Source: Pseudobdellovibrionaceae bacterium (GTDB lineage Bacteria; Bdellovibrionota; Bdellovibrionia; Bdellovibrionales; UBA1609). Taken from it: 64,000 nucleotides of DNA. Shown here in pieces: positions 9,852 to 20,810 of the stretch. The notes beneath the pieces are model-generated. The model did not search any database and had not been told where the DNA came from. It saw nothing but the letters and a program-made list of their open reading frames with translations. The stretch is taken from NCBI GenBank assembly GCA_947444305.1, contig CANEZP010000001.1, positions 206,151 to 270,150 of the forward strand, given 5' to 3'. The translations under genes and the position numbers were made by a program. How positions within the stretch are numbered: position 1 is the first letter of the stretch; every line of letters starts with the position of its first letter.

Positions 9852-12800
9852 TTATAGTAGGTCGTTGCAGGTTGGGGTTTTTAGGGTGCGGAGTTTGGTT
9901 GGGGTTAGGTTTTTGGTTTTCATTGTGGCTAGGAGTTCTTCGTTGATGTTGTAGATGGCGCGGGCTTCGATGAAGCGGTTGCGGCGGTCTTCGTTTGGGA
10001 TTCTTGATGGGTGGTTTATTCTTAAGGCCGCGTCGAGGAGATCGTTGGTGGCGGGTTGGAAACCGTCTTTGCGCCAGAGTTCTTTAGCGATATCGAGGAG
10101 ACGGTTTTTTGCGGTCGCCGGTGCGATGCCGAATTTTTTTAGGAAAAGAACATCGGCTTCGATTTCGGTGTTCCACGGAAACGACTTTACCGCGCCACGG
10201 GCTGCGTGCGGGCTTCTTTCCGGCACGGATGCTAAAGTTTTAAGGATGCGGGCTCGCCACTTAAGATCAGCATTAAGGGCCGCGGTGAGCGAAGGTTTAA
10301 GCGAGGCTTTGTACTTATCGTTCTCTTCCGCAGAATGGAAACTGCCCCAATAGTTTTCGGCGAGGAGGCCGATGGCGGCGAGTTCGCCGGCCTTGCCTTC
10401 ATCCTTCATCCAATCGAAAATGATCGCGCGCGATTTCTCGGAAGCAAGGCTGATCGCGATGGCTAATTGTTGTGAGAACCCGGTGTTCTCGGTGCCGGCA
10501 TGACGAATAAGATAACGAATCGCTTTTTGATCCGCGAGGCTGATTTTGTCGTTCGTGCGTAAACGCAGATAAATTTCGAGATAAAAGTTTGCGGCGAGAC
10601 TCGCGCGCTCAAGGGTGGGACGGTCGCCGTCCATCTTGACGCTGGGATGGCTCAAAGGTTGTTCAAGGACCGGCAGGTCGGCGAAATTTTCGACGAAGAA
10701 TTTAGTATGGTCTTTCGCGAATTCGCGCATGAGGCTTTGAATGCCCCAGTCACTTTTCACTTTGCGCGATAAGGTTAGATATTCTTCTTTCACTTTGCTT
10801 GCGTAGAGCGCGAGCCCCGGGTTGTCTTGATTGAACATCTGGCTACTGACCACAAAGTTCCAGTATCCGGGGGTCGAGAGAGTTCCCGGTTGAGCATCGT
10901 GGAGACGTTTAAAAAAGGCCTCTTTTTGGGCGTCTAAGTCTTGGACATAATATTTGCGAATGAGGGCGCGTAAGAAAGCCCGGTCTCTTTTCTCATCCCA
11001 GGGGAAGTCACTTAAAAAATAGAGGTCTCCCGAGGCCAGGATTTCCTGCTGTAAACGCGCGAGAATTCGCGGCTGGTTCCAAAGATCTTTTAGAGCCTCA
11101 TGGGTGTCCGGACGTATGAGTACGATCGGCTGGTCGCCGTCTTGTAAACGCGCGATGCGCTTCAAAGCGAGGTCGCGAAGCGGACCCGGCGTGCTCAACA
11201 GCGCGCGAAATCTTTCGGCGGTGGACCGGTCGATAGGTCCTTTAAGAAGATCACGCACCGACTTCGAATCTTCGGCGGAAATGGTGGTTAAGCCTTCGGC
11301 CGCCTGGTTCGCGATTTTCTCCGTTCGCCAACCACTTGGGTAATCTTTGGCGCGGGATTTGAGCCCGGCAATGCTCAAGGCCGAGTAAAATCGTTTGCGC
11401 AATAAGGGATCGGCAATCAATTCGGGGCTGCGCACGCTGCGCAGAGCTTGTTCCTCATCGGTGTAGTCCGGACGGAGGCCGTAGATTTTTCCGAGTTGTT
11501 CAATGACGAGAGGAATATCCTTCCGCACGGTCGCGATCATCCGGTTGAGGCGTTTGAGCGCAAGCTGATCTCTTTGTTCATCCCAAGGGAAGTTTTCGAA
11601 CGCCTGGGAAAAACTAATTCCTCCATGGTCCTCCGTGATGAGCGACTCCATGCGGGTAAAGAGATTTTGGCGCCAAAGAGGATCCGCGGCGATGGTCTGC
11701 CTTAATCCTTGGCGAAGGTCTTTGAGCGAAGCTTCGACCGTCGGGTCATTGTTTTTGTAGAACGCAGAAAGGGTCAAGAGACGACCGCTGTCGCCACCTG
11801 ACTTGAACGCCGTTAGGATTTCGCGACGTTCGGCGGCGTTAGATGCGGAGAAGTGACTCCCGAAAATGCGAATCGAGCGGAGCAGATTGTTGCCGGCGCT
11901 ATGGCGTACAAGGTAAGCGAGCGGTAGGCGTATGCGCTTCCGAAAGGCTTCGTCGCCGTTAAAGTATTCGCGGGCGGCGTGCGGTAGGGCCGGGAATCGG
12001 GCGGCGAATTTTTCCGGATCACGCTGCGCTAATTGGAAGAGCAGTGATTTTGTAATGCCGGTAGATCGCTCGAAGCGCCGTATCTCGGCCAAGCGCAGGG
12101 CCAACGCAGGATCACGAACCGTGGCTTCGTCAACGGTCGAAATATTGATGAGCCAAGACGCCTCAAGATAGCCGCGGCGTTGACCTTCGGTGAAGAAATT
12201 CGGCTGCGATTTATAGAGATCGCTTAGAAATTCAACTTTGCGGCCTTTAAAATCCGGCAAATAAAATTTGTTGATCAGCACTCCAAGAATCTCAAAGTCA
12301 CGGTCAATGCGCCAGTCGAGATCGTGGAAATCTCCGTACAAATGCGTCGTGGCCTTGAAGGCGGCGAGTAGCCGGGTTCGGAATTCCGGTTTGAGCAAAG
12401 ATTGATTGAACTGGATCGAGCCGCGCAGGCTATGGAGATTTGCGATCATCAGAAGGGCAATGGGATCGTCGCCGGCCTTCGGATTCGAAATCCTATTTAA
12501 AGTCAGTCGACGCATTTCTTCATTGCCGCCGAGCATCTCCCAAATGATCTTCCGGTTGCCGTCGGTGATCGGGGTCGAAAGAACCTGTCTCAAAAAAGCT
12601 AAGTCCGAACCGTCGAGATCCTTTAATTTTTTGTCTTTTGACTGGTGGGTGAGACGCCAGATCCGGTCGTCGAACTCTTGCTTCGGGGTTTCCTCCGGCT
12701 TTCTATCGTCCGGTGAGATACGATTGAGAATGGTTTCGAAGACGTCGGCGTATTCGTGAACGATGCGGGCGCGATTAAAGCGATCGCGCAACGCTTGGTC

Positions 12801-15632
12801 CCCGATCGCGAAGCTACTTACCGAACTCAACATGAAGTTATCCGTGAGGGAAAAGCCGGCCTGCCCAAAAACTTCGGCACGCATCGATTCAAAATCAGGC
12901 CCGGCTTTGGTCTCTGGAGTGTAGAATTCTTTGATAAACGCTAAATCGCCCGGGATGCGTTTCGTGAAGGGAAATCCGGCGATGGCGAAACGAGCCTCGT
13001 ACGAAAATGAACCAAAAAGATCGTCCCGCAAAGTTTTTAGTATCGTCGCCCGGTAGGTAAGATCCCTACCTAACAGGGCATTCATAAAATCGAAAGCCGG
13101 CTGGTAAATCGCCTTAAGATTCGCGCGTTCCATTCTATCGGTATTTACCCTACCGGCAAAAGCCACGAGCGAAAGCATCGCGTGATGATTTCCGCGCAGA
13201 AGTGTCGCGATCCAATCTCTCGAGGCCGGGTCGGCGTTATTAATTAGTGTCGCTAAGACCAGAGTGGGGCCGTTGATATCCCGTTCACTTTTTCTAAAGT
13301 GGCGTACCAAATACCGTATGGCCGCGCGCTCGTCTTCGTTTAAACTTTTTTTCGACTGTAAGTTTTGGGTGATTTGCCAAAATAACCGGCCCACCTCTGA
13401 GCGCGGCGGAGTTGAACCGTTAAAAGTTTTTTCGTCAAGGTTACGAAGACCCTTAAACGCCTGGGGCCAGTCGGGGTAGGTCTCGAGAAAAGCAAACGGA
13501 AAATGTTCGGCGATCTCTTCCGCCAAGTGTGCGGTCTTCAGACTTTTCAGGCGCCAATCTTTGACACGCGCGGCGAGCTTCCGGTCGATCAAGCTATCGG
13601 GAATAATCTTTGCGAGCACCTCTCTCGAAGTGTGTTGTAAGATCCATGGCTGGTCTTTGAGTAGCGCGGGTTGTTTTTCGTAGATGGCGCGGAGCAATTT
13701 CATTTCTTCTTCGCGTGCGTACGGGGCGGGCTTGTTCGCTTCCATCGCGTTTTTTAGCCGGGCGATGAAAACACCGATGGGTTCCGCTTCGGGAACGTTG
13801 GCCATGCCCAAGGCCTTCGCGTACGAGTAGACCATTTGGTATTCTTTGTAAGCGATGAACATCTCGCGTGGTTCAGTCTTATCTAGATTTGCGGTCAATC
13901 GAGATTTTAGTGCGGCGATCAAACTTCCCACGTCGTTCTTCATATCGAAGGCTTCGACGTTAAGAATAAGGACGACGCCGTTTGTGTTGAGCAGAAGATC
14001 AATCCCGTAGTGTCGGGCTAGGTATTGGTGAAAATCAATTTTAAGTTTTTTCGCCTCGGCGCGGACCTGGTCCATAAACGGGTGAGCCGTGTCGGCGCGT
14101 AGAATATTGATGCGGGCGTCGCGTTTTACTGCCAGTTGAAACACGAAGCCTTCGGAAGCCGCGTATGATCGTGCGACGTCTTCCGACGGTGAAGAATATC
14201 CCCCGGTGCCTTGGGCGTAACCGCCCTGAAGGTTGTGACCTCCGCTGACGATCAGGCCGCCCCTAAGAATGGACATCGCGTTCGTGAGCGTCCTGGTGCC
14301 ATGGTAGAGAAAGCCGTGAGCGGTATGTTCTTTGATAAATTGGTTTACCGGCACGAGTAGTTCTCGCGGGAAACCGTTAAGCTCGCTTTTTAGTCTGGCG
14401 CTGCGAATTTCGAGCAGTGAGGAATCAACGAACTCCGGAATAACCGTTTTCCTATATTTTGCGTAGATCAGATCGTTGAGCTGTAGAATCAAGCTTTCGA
14501 GGCTTTGCTTGCCGCCACGGTAAAGCCGGTTGTGCGCGCCCGAGAATCGCGCGTTGCGAACGATTTTGTTGAATTGATCGAGTGCTTTTTCGGAAACTTC
14601 GGAGCCGCCATTGACCTTCTCGATCAAAGCCAGCAGTTCTTGCTTAAATTGTTCGTCATCTAAAACGCTTAAGAAGGGGAGCTCCAGCAACGGACGAATG
14701 CCGCGCACCGTTTGTTTGTCGCTGTCTTTTTGTTTTTCCCCGCTCGCGGGCGCGACGTAGCGATACCAACCGCTCAGCATTTCTTGAACGATGTACGAGT
14801 GAGTTTGCGGCAAGCGAAAGCGTCCCGCTTCGACATCGAACGCGAGGAAATCGACGACCGACCCGCCCTGACGGGTGGCGAGCCCGATCTGCTCATCGTA
14901 AGGCTTCGTATCGCCGACGGTAAAAATGCTTCGTTTATGATCGCCTTTCATGGCGCGGGCGTCGTACTTCGTTTCCGCCGAATTCGTGATTTCGGTAATC
15001 TTGTTGATCGCTTCGCCGGTCAAATCCTCCGGCCCATCAACGAGAACATCAAAATCACTGCCGACGCCGCGAACGGTGAAGCCGAGCAGATCACCTTTTT
15101 CGTCCGCGATTTCTTTTAAGATTTGATTCGGGTCAAGATTCGGGTTCGCCTGCATGCGCCGGTAAAGAACCGCGTAGACGTAACTGACGACCGAACGGAC
15201 CACGCCCCCGCTGGGCATCACTTTAACTTTCGGATTCAAGTGACTTCGTAAATAATCAAAGTAACGAGCGTTCTGTAGCTCGCCGCCGGCGGTGACCACC
15301 GGTACGGTCAGACGGTTGAAGATCGAAGCTAAGGCCGCTTCTAAATTAAGTTGCGCTTCATTCAAGATATTCTGCGGGATTCCATCCGGGCGTTTGCCAC
15401 GCCATTGCCGCGCGAGAAAGTAGTTCGGGAACTCGGTCTGGACGTTAAAGACCGGGCCCTGCTGAACCGGTAGGAGCTCAGGTTGGCGCCCGGCTTGGGC
15501 GTGGACGGGCAAGGGCAGCGCCGTGGCGGCGGCCACTACGATACCGAGCCAAAATTGTCCTACGCGTGCCCATAACTTCGTCAGATCATGCTCCTCAAAT
15601 AGCGCTGGCACCGGCAGATTCCGCCGTTTCAC
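9852..15632 (-). CDS. Giant exported protein with nucleotidyltransferase-like and PARP-like domains plus long repeats
   Basis: The 1926-residue product has an export signal (FWLGIVVAAATALPLPVHAQA, cleavage near residue 47). Residues 140-270 resemble polymerase-beta-fold nucleotidyltransferases: GGVVR at 142-146, SDFDVLV at 192-198 and a third acidic site at D261 (VVDFLAFDV). Residues 440-562 resemble a PARP catalytic domain: FLYHGTR, then SILRGGLIV, then GTGGYSSPSEDVARSYA, giving the His and Tyr of the H-Y-E triad; the Glu position appears replaced in NTNGVVLIL. Residues of about 650-1926 form helical superrepeats of about 465 aa, with YLVRH-type motifs near 777, 1239 and 1707. The domain calls rest on motif comparison by eye. 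The start is GTG 15632 without a good ribosome site; a CTG start at residue 17 behind GAGGAG would give a more normal signal peptide. Neighbours are other exported proteins. Confidence 0.75.
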   Translation of the reverse strand: MKRRNLPVPALFEEHDLTKLWARVGQFWLGIVVAAATALPLPVHAQAGRQPELLPVQQGPVFNVQTEFPNYFLARQWRGKRPDGIPQNILNEAQLNLEAALASIFNRLTVPVVTAGGELQNARYFDYLRSHLNPKVKVMPSGGVVRSVVSYVYAVLYRRMQANPNLDPNQILKEIADEKGDLLGFTVRGVGSDFDVLVDGPEDLTGEAINKITEITNSAETKYDARAMKGDHKRSIFTVGDTKPYDEQIGLATRQGGSVVDFLAFDVEAGRFRLPQTHSYIVQEMLSGWYRYVAPASGEKQKDSDKQTVRGIRPLLELPFLSVLDDEQFKQELLALIEKVNGGSEVSEKALDQFNKIVRNARFSGAHNRLYRGGKQSLESLILQLNDLIYAKYRKTVIPEFVDSSLLEIRSARLKSELNGFPRELLVPVNQFIKEHTAHGFLYHGTRTLTNAMSILRGGLIVSGGHNLQGGYAQGTGGYSSPSEDVARSYAASEGFVFQLAVKRDARINILRADTAHPFMDQVRAEAKKLKIDFHQYLARHYGIDLLLNTNGVVLILNVEAFDMKNDVGSLIAALKSRLTANLDKTEPREMFIAYKEYQMVYSYAKALGMANVPEAEPIGVFIARLKNAMEANKPAPYAREEEMKLLRAIYEKQPALLKDQPWILQHTSREVLAKIIPDSLIDRKLAARVKDWRLKSLKTAHLAEEIAEHFPFAFLETYPDWPQAFKGLRNLDEKTFNGSTPPRSEVGRLFWQITQNLQSKKSLNEDERAAIRYLVRHFRKSERDINGPTLVLATLINNADPASRDWIATLLRGNHHAMLSLVAFAGRVNTDRMERANLKAIYQPAFDFMNALLGRDLTYRATILKTLRDDLFGSFSYEARFAIAGFPFTKRIPGDLAFIKEFYTPETKAGPDFESMRAEVFGQAGFSLTDNFMLSSVSSFAIGDQALRDRFNRARIVHEYADVFETILNRISPDDRKPEETPKQEFDDRIWRLTHQSKDKKLKDLDGSDLAFLRQVLSTPITDGNRKIIWEMLGGNEEMRRLTLNRISNPKAGDDPIALLMIANLHSLRGSIQFNQSLLKPEFRTRLLAAFKATTHLYGDFHDLDWRIDRDFEILGVLINKFYLPDFKGRKVEFLSDLYKSQPNFFTEGQRRGYLEASWLINISTVDEATVRDPALALRLAEIRRFERSTGITKSLLFQLAQRDPEKFAARFPALPHAAREYFNGDEAFRKRIRLPLAYLVRHSAGNNLLRSIRIFGSHFSASNAAERREILTAFKSGGDSGRLLTLSAFYKNNDPTVEASLKDLRQGLRQTIAADPLWRQNLFTRMESLITEDHGGISFSQAFENFPWDEQRDQLALKRLNRMIATVRKDIPLVIEQLGKIYGLRPDYTDEEQALRSVRSPELIADPLLRKRFYSALSIAGLKSRAKDYPSGWRTEKIANQAAEGLTTISAEDSKSVRDLLKGPIDRSTAERFRALLSTPGPLRDLALKRIARLQDGDQPIVLIRPDTHEALKDLWNQPRILARLQQEILASGDLYFLSDFPWDEKRDRAFLRALIRKYYVQDLDAQKEAFFKRLHDAQPGTLSTPGYWNFVVSSQMFNQDNPGLALYASKVKEEYLTLSRKVKSDWGIQSLMREFAKDHTKFFVENFADLPVLEQPLSHPSVKMDGDRPTLERASLAANFYLEIYLRLRTNDKISLADQKAIRYLIRHAGTENTGFSQQLAIAISLASEKSRAIIFDWMKDEGKAGELAAIGLLAENYWGSFHSAEENDKYKASLKPSLTAALNADLKWRARILKTLASVPERSPHAARGAVKSFPWNTEIEADVLFLKKFGIAPATAKNRLLDIAKELWRKDGFQPATNDLLDAALRINHPSRIPNEDRRNRFIEARAIYNINEELLATMKTKNLTPTKLRTLKTPTCNDLL

Positions 15633-16411: not shown

Positions 16412-16939
16412 TCAAGCCGAACTTCGCGGCCCGAACTCCCGCACGATGATATCGGCGTAGTCACGATCATGGCCTTGTCCCTCGAGCTGATTGACGAGGA
16501 CGTAATCTCGCACGTTTAGAAACGCTTGGTACCCAATCACCACTCGCGTGAACGGGCGGTAATCCCAAAATCTTTTCTTGTTCTTCTTAAGCTTACTCGC
16601 CTTAGTAATGACCAACGCAATCGTTCCCGTAATGGCCCGGATGAATGGCCGGTAGGTGAACCTATTGGCGAGTTGAATATGCAGGTGGAGGTGATTTCCC
16701 ACGTTGGCGACCGAATGAATACGCACGCCGTTCTTTTTTGCGAAACGATCAATGATTCCCCGAACTGTTTTCCGGTGCTTCAGGAATGATTTTTCGCCTT
16801 TGGCTTGGGTCGAACGCAGCACGAGGTGGATTGATTTCTTTTCCGCGAGGGGTCGGTGCCCTTGCCGGCCTTTTCTTTTGTTACGGTAAAGGCCTCCGTA
16901 AAACTTTTTTTCTGGTTTGAGCAGGGGAATTTGCTTCAT
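16412..16939 (-). CDS. REP-associated tyrosine transposase (IS200-like, Y1 family)
   Basis: The 175-aa product has the HUH motif NHLHLHIQL and a downstream catalytic tyrosine candidate in NVRDYVLVNQLEGQ, the layout of Y1 single-strand transposases. The basic N-terminus and internal position without obvious IS ends match RAYT proteins, which are thought to act on REP-type hairpins. A hairpin suited to be such a target lies about 100 bases upstream (17040-17063). Start at ATG 16939; the frame stays open further upstream but without a better site. It seems intact (no frameshift). Confidence 0.8.
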   Translation of the reverse strand: MKQIPLLKPEKKFYGGLYRNKRKGRQGHRPLAEKKSIHLVLRSTQAKGEKSFLKHRKTVRGIIDRFAKKNGVRIHSVANVGNHLHLHIQLANRFTYRPFIRAITGTIALVITKASKLKKNKKRFWDYRPFTRVVIGYQAFLNVRDYVLVNQLEGQGHDRDYADIIVREFGPRSSA

Positions 16940-17039
16940 TGGTGACCGATGGTATTGCGGGTGGGGTCGGTTGTCAATTTGCGTCTTCGAGGAGGCTGTT
17001 TTTGTTTTGCGTTGATTCGTCCGTCCGTGCAAAGGCCTT

Positions 17040-17063
17040 CTTCACGCCGTCCGCGGCGTGAAG
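17040..17063. repeat. Perfect hairpin, possible REP-type target
   Basis: CTTCACGCCG, loop TCCG, CGGCGTGAAG: a 10-bp perfect stem just upstream of the RAYT gene. RAYT genes usually sit beside such palindromes. Only one copy was found here by eye, so the link is tentative. Confidence 0.55.
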
Positions 17064-17139
17064 ACTTTGATGTTGGGGAGGTTTTTTGTTTTGAAGGATA
17101 GGAGTGGTATGAGGAAGAGGAGGGAGATTGTTTGGAAAG

Positions 17140-17206
17140 AAAACTGTTTTGGTGCGTATTTGCTTCGAGGGTCCGCGCACCGTTATTTATTCACGAGAAC
17201 AGTTTT
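17140..17206. other. Nested inverted repeat at the end of the ATP-grasp gene
   Basis: AAAACTGTT (17140-17148) pairs with AACAGTTTT (17198-17206), and inside it GGTGCG (17151-17156) pairs with CGCACC (17176-17181). The outer arm overlaps the stop codon at 17206-17208. It could be a transcription end structure for the minus-strand gene or one end of a mobilised unit. Confidence 0.6.
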
Positions 17207-18696
17207 TAGAGTTTTGGGCCGGTTATTTTTGGGAGCATGAGTGAGCGTTCGCAGTGGCTTGGGGTGGTGACGATGAGCTCCATCGCGGATTGGCTGACGT
17301 TGTTGAGGACGCCCGGGATTTTCGGGCTGGCGCGGCCCCAGATGGCGGGTTTAAGAGGCTCGCCGGCAATGACGAAAGTATGGGGGCGGAAGTCGACGTT
17401 GAAATTGATCCAGGTTTTTGTGGCTTCGGCCGGCAGGTACGACACGTCGATTAGTTTTTGTTTTATGAAAACCGCTGGGGCGTGGTTGTTCTTAATAGTT
17501 TCAGAGATGGCCCAGTCATCGATGTGCCGGCGCAGATTATCGCGACCCTGCGAAGTCAGATCGTCGAGGATAAAGACTTGGTTTCCTTGATTCCCATCGG
17601 ACTTTTTTATGACCCAGCCTGAATTTAAATCTTTGAGGTCGGCGCTCGACAAAACCCATTCGCTGGTTTGAGTTTCCAGTAAAGGAGGTTGAACCAAATA
17701 AAGCTCCGTCAACTTATCCATGACGGGCAGAAGGCCTTTGTTGCCGAGGATGTCCATGCCGGGGCCGTTCATGAAATCAAGTTTGCGGGCCGTAAAAGCA
17801 TCCAAGACTTTTTGAATCGAAGTGAACGTGGGCAGATCGAAGACCGAAGCGATATTGATGACCTTCGTAAATTCACCCGCGATGAAACGCTTAAGCTGTT
17901 CACTTTCCGGTTGGAGTGAGCTTGGCGTGATAATTTCGATGCCTAATTTTTTGGCCAAGTCATCGAGGCGATTGTCCTCGTCGTCAACCGGTTTGACGCC
18001 TTCTAATTTTGTGCCGCCCCGGTAAAGGATAACCGCGCGCTTGGACCAATCATTCCTCGGAATATCTTTTAGAAAGACTTCGATGGCTTGGAGCAGGGGT
18101 GGATTCAATTCGCCCGCGGTTCCCTGAAGCGAGAAGAATGCATTGTGAGTCGCCGCAATGTCGCCGACCCCACCGATTTGGCCGACGTTGTCTTCGATCA
18201 CGCGGAAACGTCCCTCGGTATTGCGAACAATATCCGGGCCGTAGATCATGCTTAGATCTTTCTCGGAACGCCCGACCCAAACCTTACGCAAGAATTCAAT
18301 GTTGTACGACACACTTTCGTTTTGCGCGATCGCGTGAATTTGCGCATGGGTGAGTAGGCCCGAAGCGGTGACCTTTGCCGAGTTGTTGAAAATAACATCG
18401 GCGAAAAAGGCGAGAAGCGTGCGGGCGCGCAGTTGTGCACCTCGCTGGATCAAACCGTACTCATCCACGGAAAGGACGGATGGGATCGGTAGAATCTTGA
18501 TTGCGTCGCCCATCGGCATCCCCAGCAAGCGAGTGGCTTCGCGCGGGTCGACCGGGTAGGGTGGCCTTTGCGTCGACTTAGCGTACTCGACGAAGCTCGC
18601 GCGGAATTCGCCTTGGTCATCGATGGCCTCGTTAAACTGCGCGTGTGCGGGCGCGAAGTTAAACAATGCTAGCGCCAGGGCGATGAGGCATTTCAT
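17206..18696 (-). CDS. Exported circularly permuted ATP-grasp-like protein
   Basis: The 496-aa protein starts with a typical signal peptide (MKCLIALALALFNFAPAHAQ). The rest resembles circularly permuted ATP-grasp proteins (DUF404/DUF407 type): YGPDIVRNTEGRFRVIEDNV, a lysine-containing strand WVIKKSDGNQGNQVFIL, FIKQKLIDV, DFRPHTFVI and WGRASPKIPGVLNNVSQSA. Family relatives are presumed cytosolic peptide ligases, so export is odd, since ATP is scarce in the periplasm. The start is set by GGAG six bases before ATG 18696. No DUF403 or transglutaminase partner is next to it; upstream are two lipoprotein paralogues. Substrate is unknown. Confidence 0.7.
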   Translation of the reverse strand: MKCLIALALALFNFAPAHAQFNEAIDDQGEFRASFVEYAKSTQRPPYPVDPREATRLLGMPMGDAIKILPIPSVLSVDEYGLIQRGAQLRARTLLAFFADVIFNNSAKVTASGLLTHAQIHAIAQNESVSYNIEFLRKVWVGRSEKDLSMIYGPDIVRNTEGRFRVIEDNVGQIGGVGDIAATHNAFFSLQGTAGELNPPLLQAIEVFLKDIPRNDWSKRAVILYRGGTKLEGVKPVDDEDNRLDDLAKKLGIEIITPSSLQPESEQLKRFIAGEFTKVINIASVFDLPTFTSIQKVLDAFTARKLDFMNGPGMDILGNKGLLPVMDKLTELYLVQPPLLETQTSEWVLSSADLKDLNSGWVIKKSDGNQGNQVFILDDLTSQGRDNLRRHIDDWAISETIKNNHAPAVFIKQKLIDVSYLPAEATKTWINFNVDFRPHTFVIAGEPLKPAIWGRASPKIPGVLNNVSQSAMELIVTTPSHCERSLMLPKITGPKL

Positions 18697-18875
18697 CGGG
18701 TCTCCGGTTCTTAGAAGTCTTTGAAGGTGGTGCAAACGTTGAAAACCAGTTCCACGGCGGGCAAGCAAGGCGGAAGTGCGGATCGTGTAAAATTATTGTG
18801 GTCAAATGGGTCAGTGCGGCGTGCCAAGCGTTTGCTTTGAGAGAGCACTCGCGCGGAATGATTGAAGAGCGAAAA

Positions 18876-18900
18876 TGAAAAGGCCCGGAAATTCCGGGCC
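18876..18900 (-). terminator. Rho-independent terminator of the lipoprotein gene
   Basis: On the minus strand a perfect stem (GGCCCGGAA paired with TTCCGGGCC, 18882-18900) is followed by TTTTC. It lies 33 bases behind the stop of the gene ending at 18934. Confidence 0.8.
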
Positions 18901-18933
18901 CGCTGTCCAAATCAGTTTTTCAATTCACCGAGA

Positions 18934-19707
18934 TTATTGCGGGACGTAACCGAGAATCCCGCCGTCGGTCCAAGGTGCGGGGATCGAGGTCGCTTCGGCG
19001 TTAACTACGTAAATATTAATGCCACCCGAGATCGCGTTGCCGGAGATGCGGTTCATTTTTACGCGGTAAAGCGGAACGGTGCCGGGTTTTTGCGTGGTGT
19101 AGATGTGGCCTATGACGAAGGTGGTGTTCGCGCAATTGCCCGCCGTACCGTTAAAGATCTGCAGCACCGGGTAGTCTATGCTGCACAAGTAAAGCGGGAT
19201 CGACCCGGGTTCTGCGTTCGCGAGCATTTTATAGCGCGGAAGCGTATTAGGAATTGCGCCGAGCTGAGAAAAGTCGGTGGACATGACAGTTGCGGGAGCG
19301 ATCGGCGGCAAGGGTTCGACGACGACGACTCCGGGGCCGGCGGCCGGGGCCACCAATATATCAAGGGACTTCGTTAAACCGGCGGCGTCGGTCACCGTGA
19401 TTGTTACGTTTCCCGCGGCGGTTGCGGTAAAGACATTCACCGAAATGGTGCCCGCGCCGGCGCCCGACATCGAGTACGCGTAAGGCGGAGTTCCGCCGCT
19501 AGCGGATAAGCTCGCTTGGTTCCCCAACTGGAGATTGTAGGACGTTGCCATTAGATCTAATGGCAGCGCGGTGTTCGCGGGGCCCGCTTGTAAAACTTCG
19601 CTCTTGCTGGATTGGTCTAAATCATCGGGCAGGCTCTGCGCGCAGGCCATCAACGTTTGCGAGACGATTACGACAAGTAGCAGTCCAAAGCGATTTTTTA
19701 TATTCAC
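18934..19707 (-). CDS. Lipoprotein with Ig-like domain, paralogue A
   Basis: The 257-aa protein has a lipobox (SQTLMACAQ) and then a bacterial Ig/cadherin-like beta domain (LGNQASLSASGGTPPYAYS ... NVTITVTDAAGLTKSLDI). The C-terminal 100 residues contain a PLYLC...PLYRV...GILGYV pattern like the beta-trefoil-ish DUF5648 repeats. It is probably an outer-membrane lipoprotein with a surface or binding role. The GTG start at 19707 is chosen because GGAGG lies five bases upstream; the frame upstream is open by chance. It is closely similar to the next gene, with a shared leader. Confidence 0.75.
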   Translation of the reverse strand: MNIKNRFGLLLVVIVSQTLMACAQSLPDDLDQSSKSEVLQAGPANTALPLDLMATSYNLQLGNQASLSASGGTPPYAYSMSGAGAGTISVNVFTATAAGNVTITVTDAAGLTKSLDILVAPAAGPGVVVVEPLPPIAPATVMSTDFSQLGAIPNTLPRYKMLANAEPGSIPLYLCSIDYPVLQIFNGTAGNCANTTFVIGHIYTTQKPGTVPLYRVKMNRISGNAISGGINIYVVNAEATSIPAPWTDGGILGYVPQ

Positions 19708-19710
19708 TAA

Positions 19711-19829
19711 TCCTCCAGGATTTATAGAAACATGATTTTGCAAACGTTGCGCCGCATGGGCGCGAACGTCGTCGTGGTGGATGATGATATTTTCGACGCT
19801 GTCAGAAAGATGGCGATTTGCGTTTCACT
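19711..19829 (-). promoter_or_regulatory. Leader shared with the paralogous lipoprotein gene
   Basis: This stretch resembles 20666-20784 (upstream of the paralogue) in order and spacing: both contain TCCTCCAGGATT, CGCGAAC, GATGATGAT, TTCGACGCTGT and TTTGCGT. The duplication therefore included the 5' leader and probably the promoter. Confidence 0.6.
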
Positions 19830-19876: not shown

Positions 19877-20662
19877 TTACTGCGGGACGTAACCTAAGAT
19901 GCCGCCGTCGGTCCAGCCCGTGGGCACCGAAGTGGCTTCGGCGTTCATCGTGTAATACTGGAGGTTCGGCGAAATGCGTTGCATCCTCACGCGATGAAGC
20001 GCGACGGTGCCGGGCTTTTGCGTGGTGTAGATGTAGCCAAGGACGAGCGAGCCGTTCGGGCAGTTGCCGGCGGTTCCGTTGAAGATGTTAATGACGGACG
20101 ATTCGATCGTGCAAAGGTACAGCGTCGTCGTATCCGCTTCTTGATTGACCAAGTATTTGTAGCGGGGCAGCGGGTTCGAAACCGCGCCGAACGCGACGTA
20201 GTCGGTCGACATCGTGGTGAGGGGCGGGGTGACGGTGGTACCTGTCCCTGAGCCGGTCCCGGTTCCCGTGCCTGACCCGGTTCCCGTACCCGTGGTCACC
20301 ACGCTGATCAAGATATCGAGCGAATCGGTGACGCCCGCGGCATCGGTCACCGTGATTGTGACGTTGCCGGCCGTGGTGGCGGTAAACACATTCGCCGTGA
20401 TCGTGCCCGCGCCCGGGCCGGACATGGAGTAAGCGTACGGAGCGATTCCTCCGCTAGGGGCCAGCGAAGCTTGGTTGCCGACTTGGAGAACGTAAGACGT
20501 GGCGATAAAATCGAGAGGTGCGGCGGCGTTCAAAGGTTCCGTCTCAAGGGCCGAGCCGGTGCTGGATTGATCCAAATTATCGGGTAAGCCTTCCGCGCAA
20601 GCTATCAGCATTTGCGAAACGATCACGATCAAAGCCAAATTTAGATGGTTCTTTGTACTCAA
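19877..20662 (-). CDS. Lipoprotein with Ig-like domain and Gly-Thr linker, paralogue B
   Basis: The 261-aa protein is a tandem paralogue of the gene before it: same lipobox context (SQMLIACAE), same Ig-like core (LQVGNQASLAPSGG ... NVTITVTDAAGVTDSLDI) and same C-terminal pattern ending TDGGILGYVPQ. It differs by a low-complexity Gly/Thr/Ser linker at about residues 140-160, where the other copy has a Pro-rich linker. The start is TTG 20662 with GGAGG four bases upstream. The linker DNA is a short imperfect repeat that could vary in length by slippage. Confidence 0.75.
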   Translation of the reverse strand: MSTKNHLNLALIVIVSQMLIACAEGLPDNLDQSSTGSALETEPLNAAAPLDFIATSYVLQVGNQASLAPSGGIAPYAYSMSGPGAGTITANVFTATTAGNVTITVTDAAGVTDSLDILISVVTTGTGTGSGTGTGTGSGTGTTVTPPLTTMSTDYVAFGAVSNPLPRYKYLVNQEADTTTLYLCTIESSVINIFNGTAGNCPNGSLVLGYIYTTQKPGTVALHRVRMQRISPNLQYYTMNAEATSVPTGWTDGGILGYVPQ

Positions 20663-20810
20663 GCATCCTCCAGGATTAACTCTCTGAAATTGCAAGCGTG
20701 AAGCCGCATCAGCGCGAACATCGTGGCCCACGATGATGATTTTTTCGACGCTGTTAGAATTGTGGCGGTTTGCGTATCAAATTAAGACGGTGAAAACAGA
20801 CAACCGGAAC

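Follow-up and report, generated by a model that had tools for sequence, protein, structure and literature searches.

What would a ligase that depends on adenosine triphosphate (ATP) do outside the cytoplasm? The question is raised by a gene on the minus strand of a 64,000-nucleotide stretch of contig CANEZP010000001.1 (the window), from a Pseudobdellovibrionaceae bacterium, which encodes a signal peptide joined to a circularly permuted (CP) ATP-grasp domain. Ligases that depend on ATP normally work in the cytosol, and no ATP pool is known in the periplasm. Both features had been noticed in a first-pass annotation of the DNA, and both are borne out by the sequence features and by Pfam scores above the cut-offs. 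The signal, the fold class, the ATP/Mg residues, a signal-bearing form found phylum-wide and a depletion of cysteine in the signal-bearing members were each established by computation. The export signal, the intact ATP site and relatives of like build across the Bdellovibrionota, a phylum noted for members that prey on bacteria, together make ATP-driven chemistry outside the cell's own cytoplasm appear likely. As judged from its sequence, the window protein is probably an exported, active amide ligase. A more specific proposal, on which equal weight is placed for and against, is that of a catalytically competent CP ATP-grasp ligase of the glutathione/glutathionylspermidine synthetase fold that works where ATP occurs outside the cell, most likely in prey.

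The gene and its signal peptide

The open reading frame (ORF) runs from an ATG at 18696 to a TAA stop at 17206–17208 on the minus strand. Its features at the 5' end are as follows.

17206..18696, minus: coding sequence of a predicted exported CP ATP-grasp protein of 496 aa (ORF translation; Pfam CP_ATPgrasp_2 and CP_ATPgrasp_1 above cut-off)
18702..18705, minus: ribosome-binding-like GGAG at −9 to −6, 5 bases 5' of the ATG (sequence)
18640..18696, minus: predicted signal peptide, residues 1–19, with predicted cleavage between AHA and QF (sequence; signal score)
18625..18636, minus: FNEA, residues 21–24, with the [YF][DN]E motif found at the domain start of the canonical cytosolic enzymes too (alignments)
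18881..18901, minus: terminator-like hairpin, lying between the ATP-grasp gene and the gene upstream of it (consensus match only)

The predicted signal peptide, MKCLIALALALFNFAPAHA followed by QFNE, is of the Sec type: the n-region is positive, the hydrophobic core has no charged residue, and the predicted cleavage site reads A-x-A. N-termini were scored by a home-made rule that considers the hydrophobic core and the cleavage site, with a threshold of 2.8. The window protein scored 4.34; the best-scoring variant started at an upstream TTG and was cut two residues earlier. In the canonical cytosolic homologues and in the solved structure 3N6X, the [YF][DN]E motif lies near the start of the protein. 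In the window protein, FNE starts two residues past the predicted cleavage site, and thus the signal precedes an otherwise complete protein. The next in-frame starts are a TTG at residue 11, within the signal, a TTG at 57, and ATG codons at 60 and 62, each of which would disrupt the signal or remove the conserved FNE motif. Since the conserved domain opens right after the cleavage site and 33 of the 38 family members bear a signal, the start does not appear to be misplaced. The protein is predicted to leave the cytoplasm by way of a cleaved signal peptide. With the terminator-like hairpin upstream, the gene appears to stand alone.

Fold and ATP site

The window protein matched CP_ATPgrasp_2 (PF14403; E = 1e-17, 64.7 bits, cut-off 32) and CP_ATPgrasp_1 (PF04174; E = 1.6e-9, 37.6 bits, cut-off 23.1) in Pfam, and no model in NCBIfam. 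Among solved structures, the closest in sequence is 3N6X, described as a putative glutathionylspermidine synthase; the E-value was 0.04 when the window protein was searched alone and 1e-47 with the family profile. These matches place the protein, by sequence, in the CP ATP-grasp superfamily. The predicted site is composed of the following segments, with conservation counted over the signal-bearing homologues.

18160..18243, minus: YGPDIVRNTEGRFRVIEDNVGQIGGVGD, residues 152–179, with predicted metal ligands D155 (33/33), E168 (32/33) and N170 (32/33)
17575..17613, minus: VIKKSDGNQGNQV, residues 362–374, with the predicted ATP-binding lysine K364 (33/33) and a glycine-rich loop (G368 33/33, G371 33/33)
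17440..17460, minus: QKLIDVS, residues 413–419, with Q413 (33/33) and S419 (32/33)
17386..17394, minus: DFR, residues 435–437 (residue table of the family alignment)
17299..17340, minus: WGR...N, residues 453–466, with W453, R455 and N466 (each 32/33, one gap)

The first-pass annotation had left it to be checked whether the ATP and Mg residues are intact. The predicted residues are all present, and the window protein has D155, E168, N170, K364, Q413, D435, R437, W453, R455 and N466, each conserved in 32–33 of the 33 signal-bearing homologues.

The AlphaFold model of the window protein is weak (predicted local distance difference test, pLDDT = 55), and its top Foldseek match is still 3N6X at 2e-15. 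For L071, a relative of the long type, the model is good (pLDDT = 85) and matched 3N6X with a Z-score of 36 and a root-mean-square deviation of 3.2 over 432 residues. Other matches to the L071 model were glutathione synthetases (Z ~22), the secreted glutathione-synthetase-like effectors GSS22 and GSS30 of Globodera pallida, which share the CP ATP-grasp fold (Z ~22), E. coli Gss, YgiC and YjfC (Z ~19–21, with Gss at ~19), and the fungal ligase Cp1B of E-64 biosynthesis (9CJN, Z 19, 13% identity).

How the exported family relates to these proteins may be considered in terms of both sequence and use. The domain, its motifs and their order are common to the window protein and the canonical CP type 2 ATP-grasp proteins (PF14403/PF04174, 3N6X), all of which keep D155, R158, Q413, R437 and R455 in window numbering. 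In contrast to the window protein, the canonical proteins have no signal peptide, contain more cysteine and form a separate clade, and the IGGxGD motif of the exported family is PSGxxY-like in them. They are encoded beside alpha-E and transglutaminase genes, whereas the window gene has other neighbours; no alpha-E gene was found in the window genome. E. coli Gss has the same D...E-x-N arrangement at D318, E330 and N332, which we take to bind Mg in the Gss structures. The three E. coli proteins lack a signal peptide, and Gss carries an additional amidase domain. Membership in the Gss family, which is defined by the PF03738 synthetase domain and the amidase domain, was rejected: the Pfam search of the window protein gave PF14403 and PF04174 and no match to PF03738. 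A profile alignment of the exported family to Gss/YgiC was not significant.

In the potato cyst nematode, copies of glutathione synthetase that acquired a signal peptide, and whose ATP pocket is preserved, are delivered into plant cells (PMC5919673). These effectors belong to the eukaryotic glutathione synthetase family and have no detectable sequence relation to the window protein; they are best regarded as an analogy of use and not as a sign of membership. Descent from a eukaryotic glutathione synthetase was also set aside, as the Pfam and PDB sequence searches returned CP_ATPgrasp and 3N6X and no glutathione synthetase. Cp1B, a fungal biosynthetic enzyme that is remote in sequence, joins an amino acid to a dicarboxylic acid by ATP-dependent amide formation (PMC12568646).

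Signal, cysteine content and distribution across the family

Homologues were gathered from the host order and phylum. The signal threshold was reached by 30 of the 38 family members on the tree, compared to ~25% of background ORFs, and the count rises to 33 when L013, L031 and, less clearly, L003 are added by eye. A lipoprotein-type signal is present in four members (L031, L036, L037 and L038). The remaining five (L008, L064, L066, L067 and L068) have no signal, so that a search for homologues with and without the signal, as suggested in the first-pass annotation, finds both kinds. Canonical proteins fetched for comparison have no signal by reading, with one false score arising from an internal TTG.

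Cysteine content provides a second line of evidence. Signal-bearing members contain 0.97 cysteines per domain, or 0.18 per 100 aa, and most have exactly one, near the C-terminus. The unsignalled members contain 0.75 per 100 aa and the canonical cytosolic proteins 0.86 (p ~0.001 for each contrast with the signal-bearing members, to be taken as a guide only since related sequences are not independent). Among soluble ORFs taken as background from the same set of loci, those with a signal-like N-terminus are lower in cysteine too (median 0.48 versus 0.91). In two genomes a signal-bearing member occurs together with an unsignalled one; the contrast is seen in one of these (1 versus 4 cysteines) but not in the other (2 versus 1). 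The depletion supports export independently of the signal score. In the window protein, the sole cysteine of the mature form is as follows.

17251..17253, minus: C482, conserved in 29/33 signal-bearing members and aligned in 0/5 unsignalled members

As the one free thiol of a protein sent out of the cytoplasm, C482 could perhaps take part in an intermolecular disulfide.

The exported family forms one clade separate from the canonical enzymes (support 100/100). The signal requires three changes on the family tree, with long branches leaving the finer order unsure, and the window protein groups with L069, L007 and L003 in a fast-evolving subclade (100/97). A contig scan with the window protein alone as query found no relative. 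A pattern scan built on closer sequences of the long type found nine named loci, in Bdellovibrio sp., Bdellovibrionaceae, Bdellovibrionales and Oligoflexia metagenome-assembled genomes. PF14403 was detected below 1e-10 in 34 of 291 genomes of the phylum, and among the PF14403 genomes that were read, only G214 has the cytosolic operon of canonical type, in which alpha-E and transglutaminase are also encoded. No match to the family was found in phages. Occurrence on plasmids was discounted, the single weak match, in Shinella, lying at a place matched by a canonical protein too.

Proposed site of action and genomic context

By standard ATP-grasp chemistry, an exported ligase of this class would bind ATP-Mg and use the ATP to phosphorylate a carboxylate, and an amine or another acceptor would then attack the phosphorylated group. 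A peptide or a peptide–polyamine conjugate would suit the superfamily as substrate. The reaction would take place outside the cytoplasm, most likely within invaded or lysing prey, and prey-derived ATP would be the likeliest supply. The inner membrane of prey turns leaky (PMC4876506), and small molecules leaking through it from invaded prey could include the ATP that an exported ligase needs.

The genome encodes other proteins that pair a signal with ATP dependence. One further CP ATP-grasp protein, of 1,065 aa, has its own signal-like N-terminus (G000:C4, L092:5398-8595:-). Its gene is flanked by those of two signal-bearing AAA+/M41 proteins with an FtsH-like peptidase (L092:1520-5347:+ and L092:8689-12663:+), in both of which Walker A is intact and HExGH is present, with 1 and 3 cysteines in ~1,250 residues each. 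A signal on an ATP-dependent protein is therefore no single oddity here. Among 140 genomes of the order, 22 contain relatives of one AAA+/M41 protein (L152–L164); these relatives keep Walker A, mostly keep HExGH, contain 1–3 cysteines and have a signal-like N-terminus in most cases where it is readable. The AAA+/M41 family does not co-occur with the family of the window protein (2 shared genomes, p = 1). It does co-occur with the longer ATP-grasp paralogue (5/8, p = 0.003), figures that are rough because the lists compared were drawn from different sets of genomes. That the Bdellovibrionota hold a set of exported ATP consumers, composed of two ATP-grasp families and the multi-AAA+/M41 unfoldase-proteases, which would run on prey ATP in invaded prey, is offered tentatively and at somewhat less than even confidence. 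Exported ATP-dependent unfoldase-proteases, if real, would be remarkable in themselves.

Some observations were made alongside. The C-terminal part of the 1,065-aa protein contains HEMEH and HELNH. Of 291 genomes from the phylum, 55 hold relatives of this protein, 800–1,280 aa long, with a signal in some and not in others. Beside one AAA+/M41 gene lie two tandem related signal-bearing proteins of ~400 and ~370 aa (L092:12653-13867:+ and L092:13877-14992:+). The pair matched nothing in Pfam or NCBIfam, and an amidoligase-like fold was guessed by eye only.

Several points weigh against an exported ligase fuelled by prey. Predation by this organism is judged from its relatives alone, and the ATP outside the cell is a presumed supply. 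Five family members have no signal. The branch leading to the window protein is long, and the model predicted for it is the weak one. No conserved operon partner names a substrate, and a window-type protein was not found in three congeners; it is therefore not essential to the lineage.

Export without delivery to prey would be the alternative of most substance. The protein would stay in the cell's own periplasm or at its surface, where it would modify the envelope or small molecules using scarce ATP, from the cell or from lysed neighbours, or another phosphoryl donor. The signal alone is silent on the crossing of the outer membrane, and the four relatives of lipoprotein type would be membrane-anchored. 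Set against this, no ATP pool is known in the periplasm, and the alternative is considered unlikely. Less probable again is a protein that has lost catalysis and is exported to bind a nucleotide, a peptide or another ligand. Decay does occur, since the relative L006 has lost the E-D-N motif (E168, N170), and the long branch of the window protein would fit with it. However, a plain binder would not need conserved ATP/Mg residues, and every predicted one is kept in the window protein and in 32–33 of 33 signal-bearing members. Of the two courses offered by the first-pass annotation, activity at a place outside the cell that has ATP or service as a binder, the second is thus not supported, with nine ATP/Mg residues present and so conserved. 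Finally, an unused signal or a misplaced start with a cytosolic working protein, which the first-pass annotation had named as grounds for refutation, is very improbable: the five unsignalled members speak for it, but the later starts break the signal or delete FNE, several signal types recur over the clade and cysteine depletion goes with the signal.

An exported clade with intact ATP sites across a phylum noted for predators would mean ATP chemistry conducted outside the cell, and it opens to testing whether predators spend prey ATP through their own secreted enzymes. In the open-access literature searched, no mention of a secreted, periplasmic or extracellular ATP-grasp protein was found, and the two co-mentions of Bdellovibrio and ATP-grasp were unrelated to an exported enzyme.

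The neighbourhood of the window gene is not conserved beyond a few close loci. In the nearest relative (L069/L079), an overlapping downstream gene (L079:8299-9240:+) encodes a signal-bearing papain-like cysteine peptidase; it was not counted as a partner because similar genes are common in the order (54 of 140 genomes). Upstream of the window gene are two mutually similar neighbours (18934–19743 and 19877–20731, minus) with lipobox-like N-termini (MACA, IACA) and no clear Pfam family. Elsewhere in the window, a 1,926-aa protein (9852–15632, minus) has a signal-like N-terminus and a single cysteine thereafter; its LYHGT...GGYSS recalls ADP-ribosyltransferases, with a PARP match below the cut-off (E = 0.05). 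Immediately downstream of the ATP-grasp gene, a 206-aa ORF (16412–17032, minus) resembles, by eye, REP-associated tyrosine transposases, and an 11-pair hairpin at 17039–17064 adjoins it.
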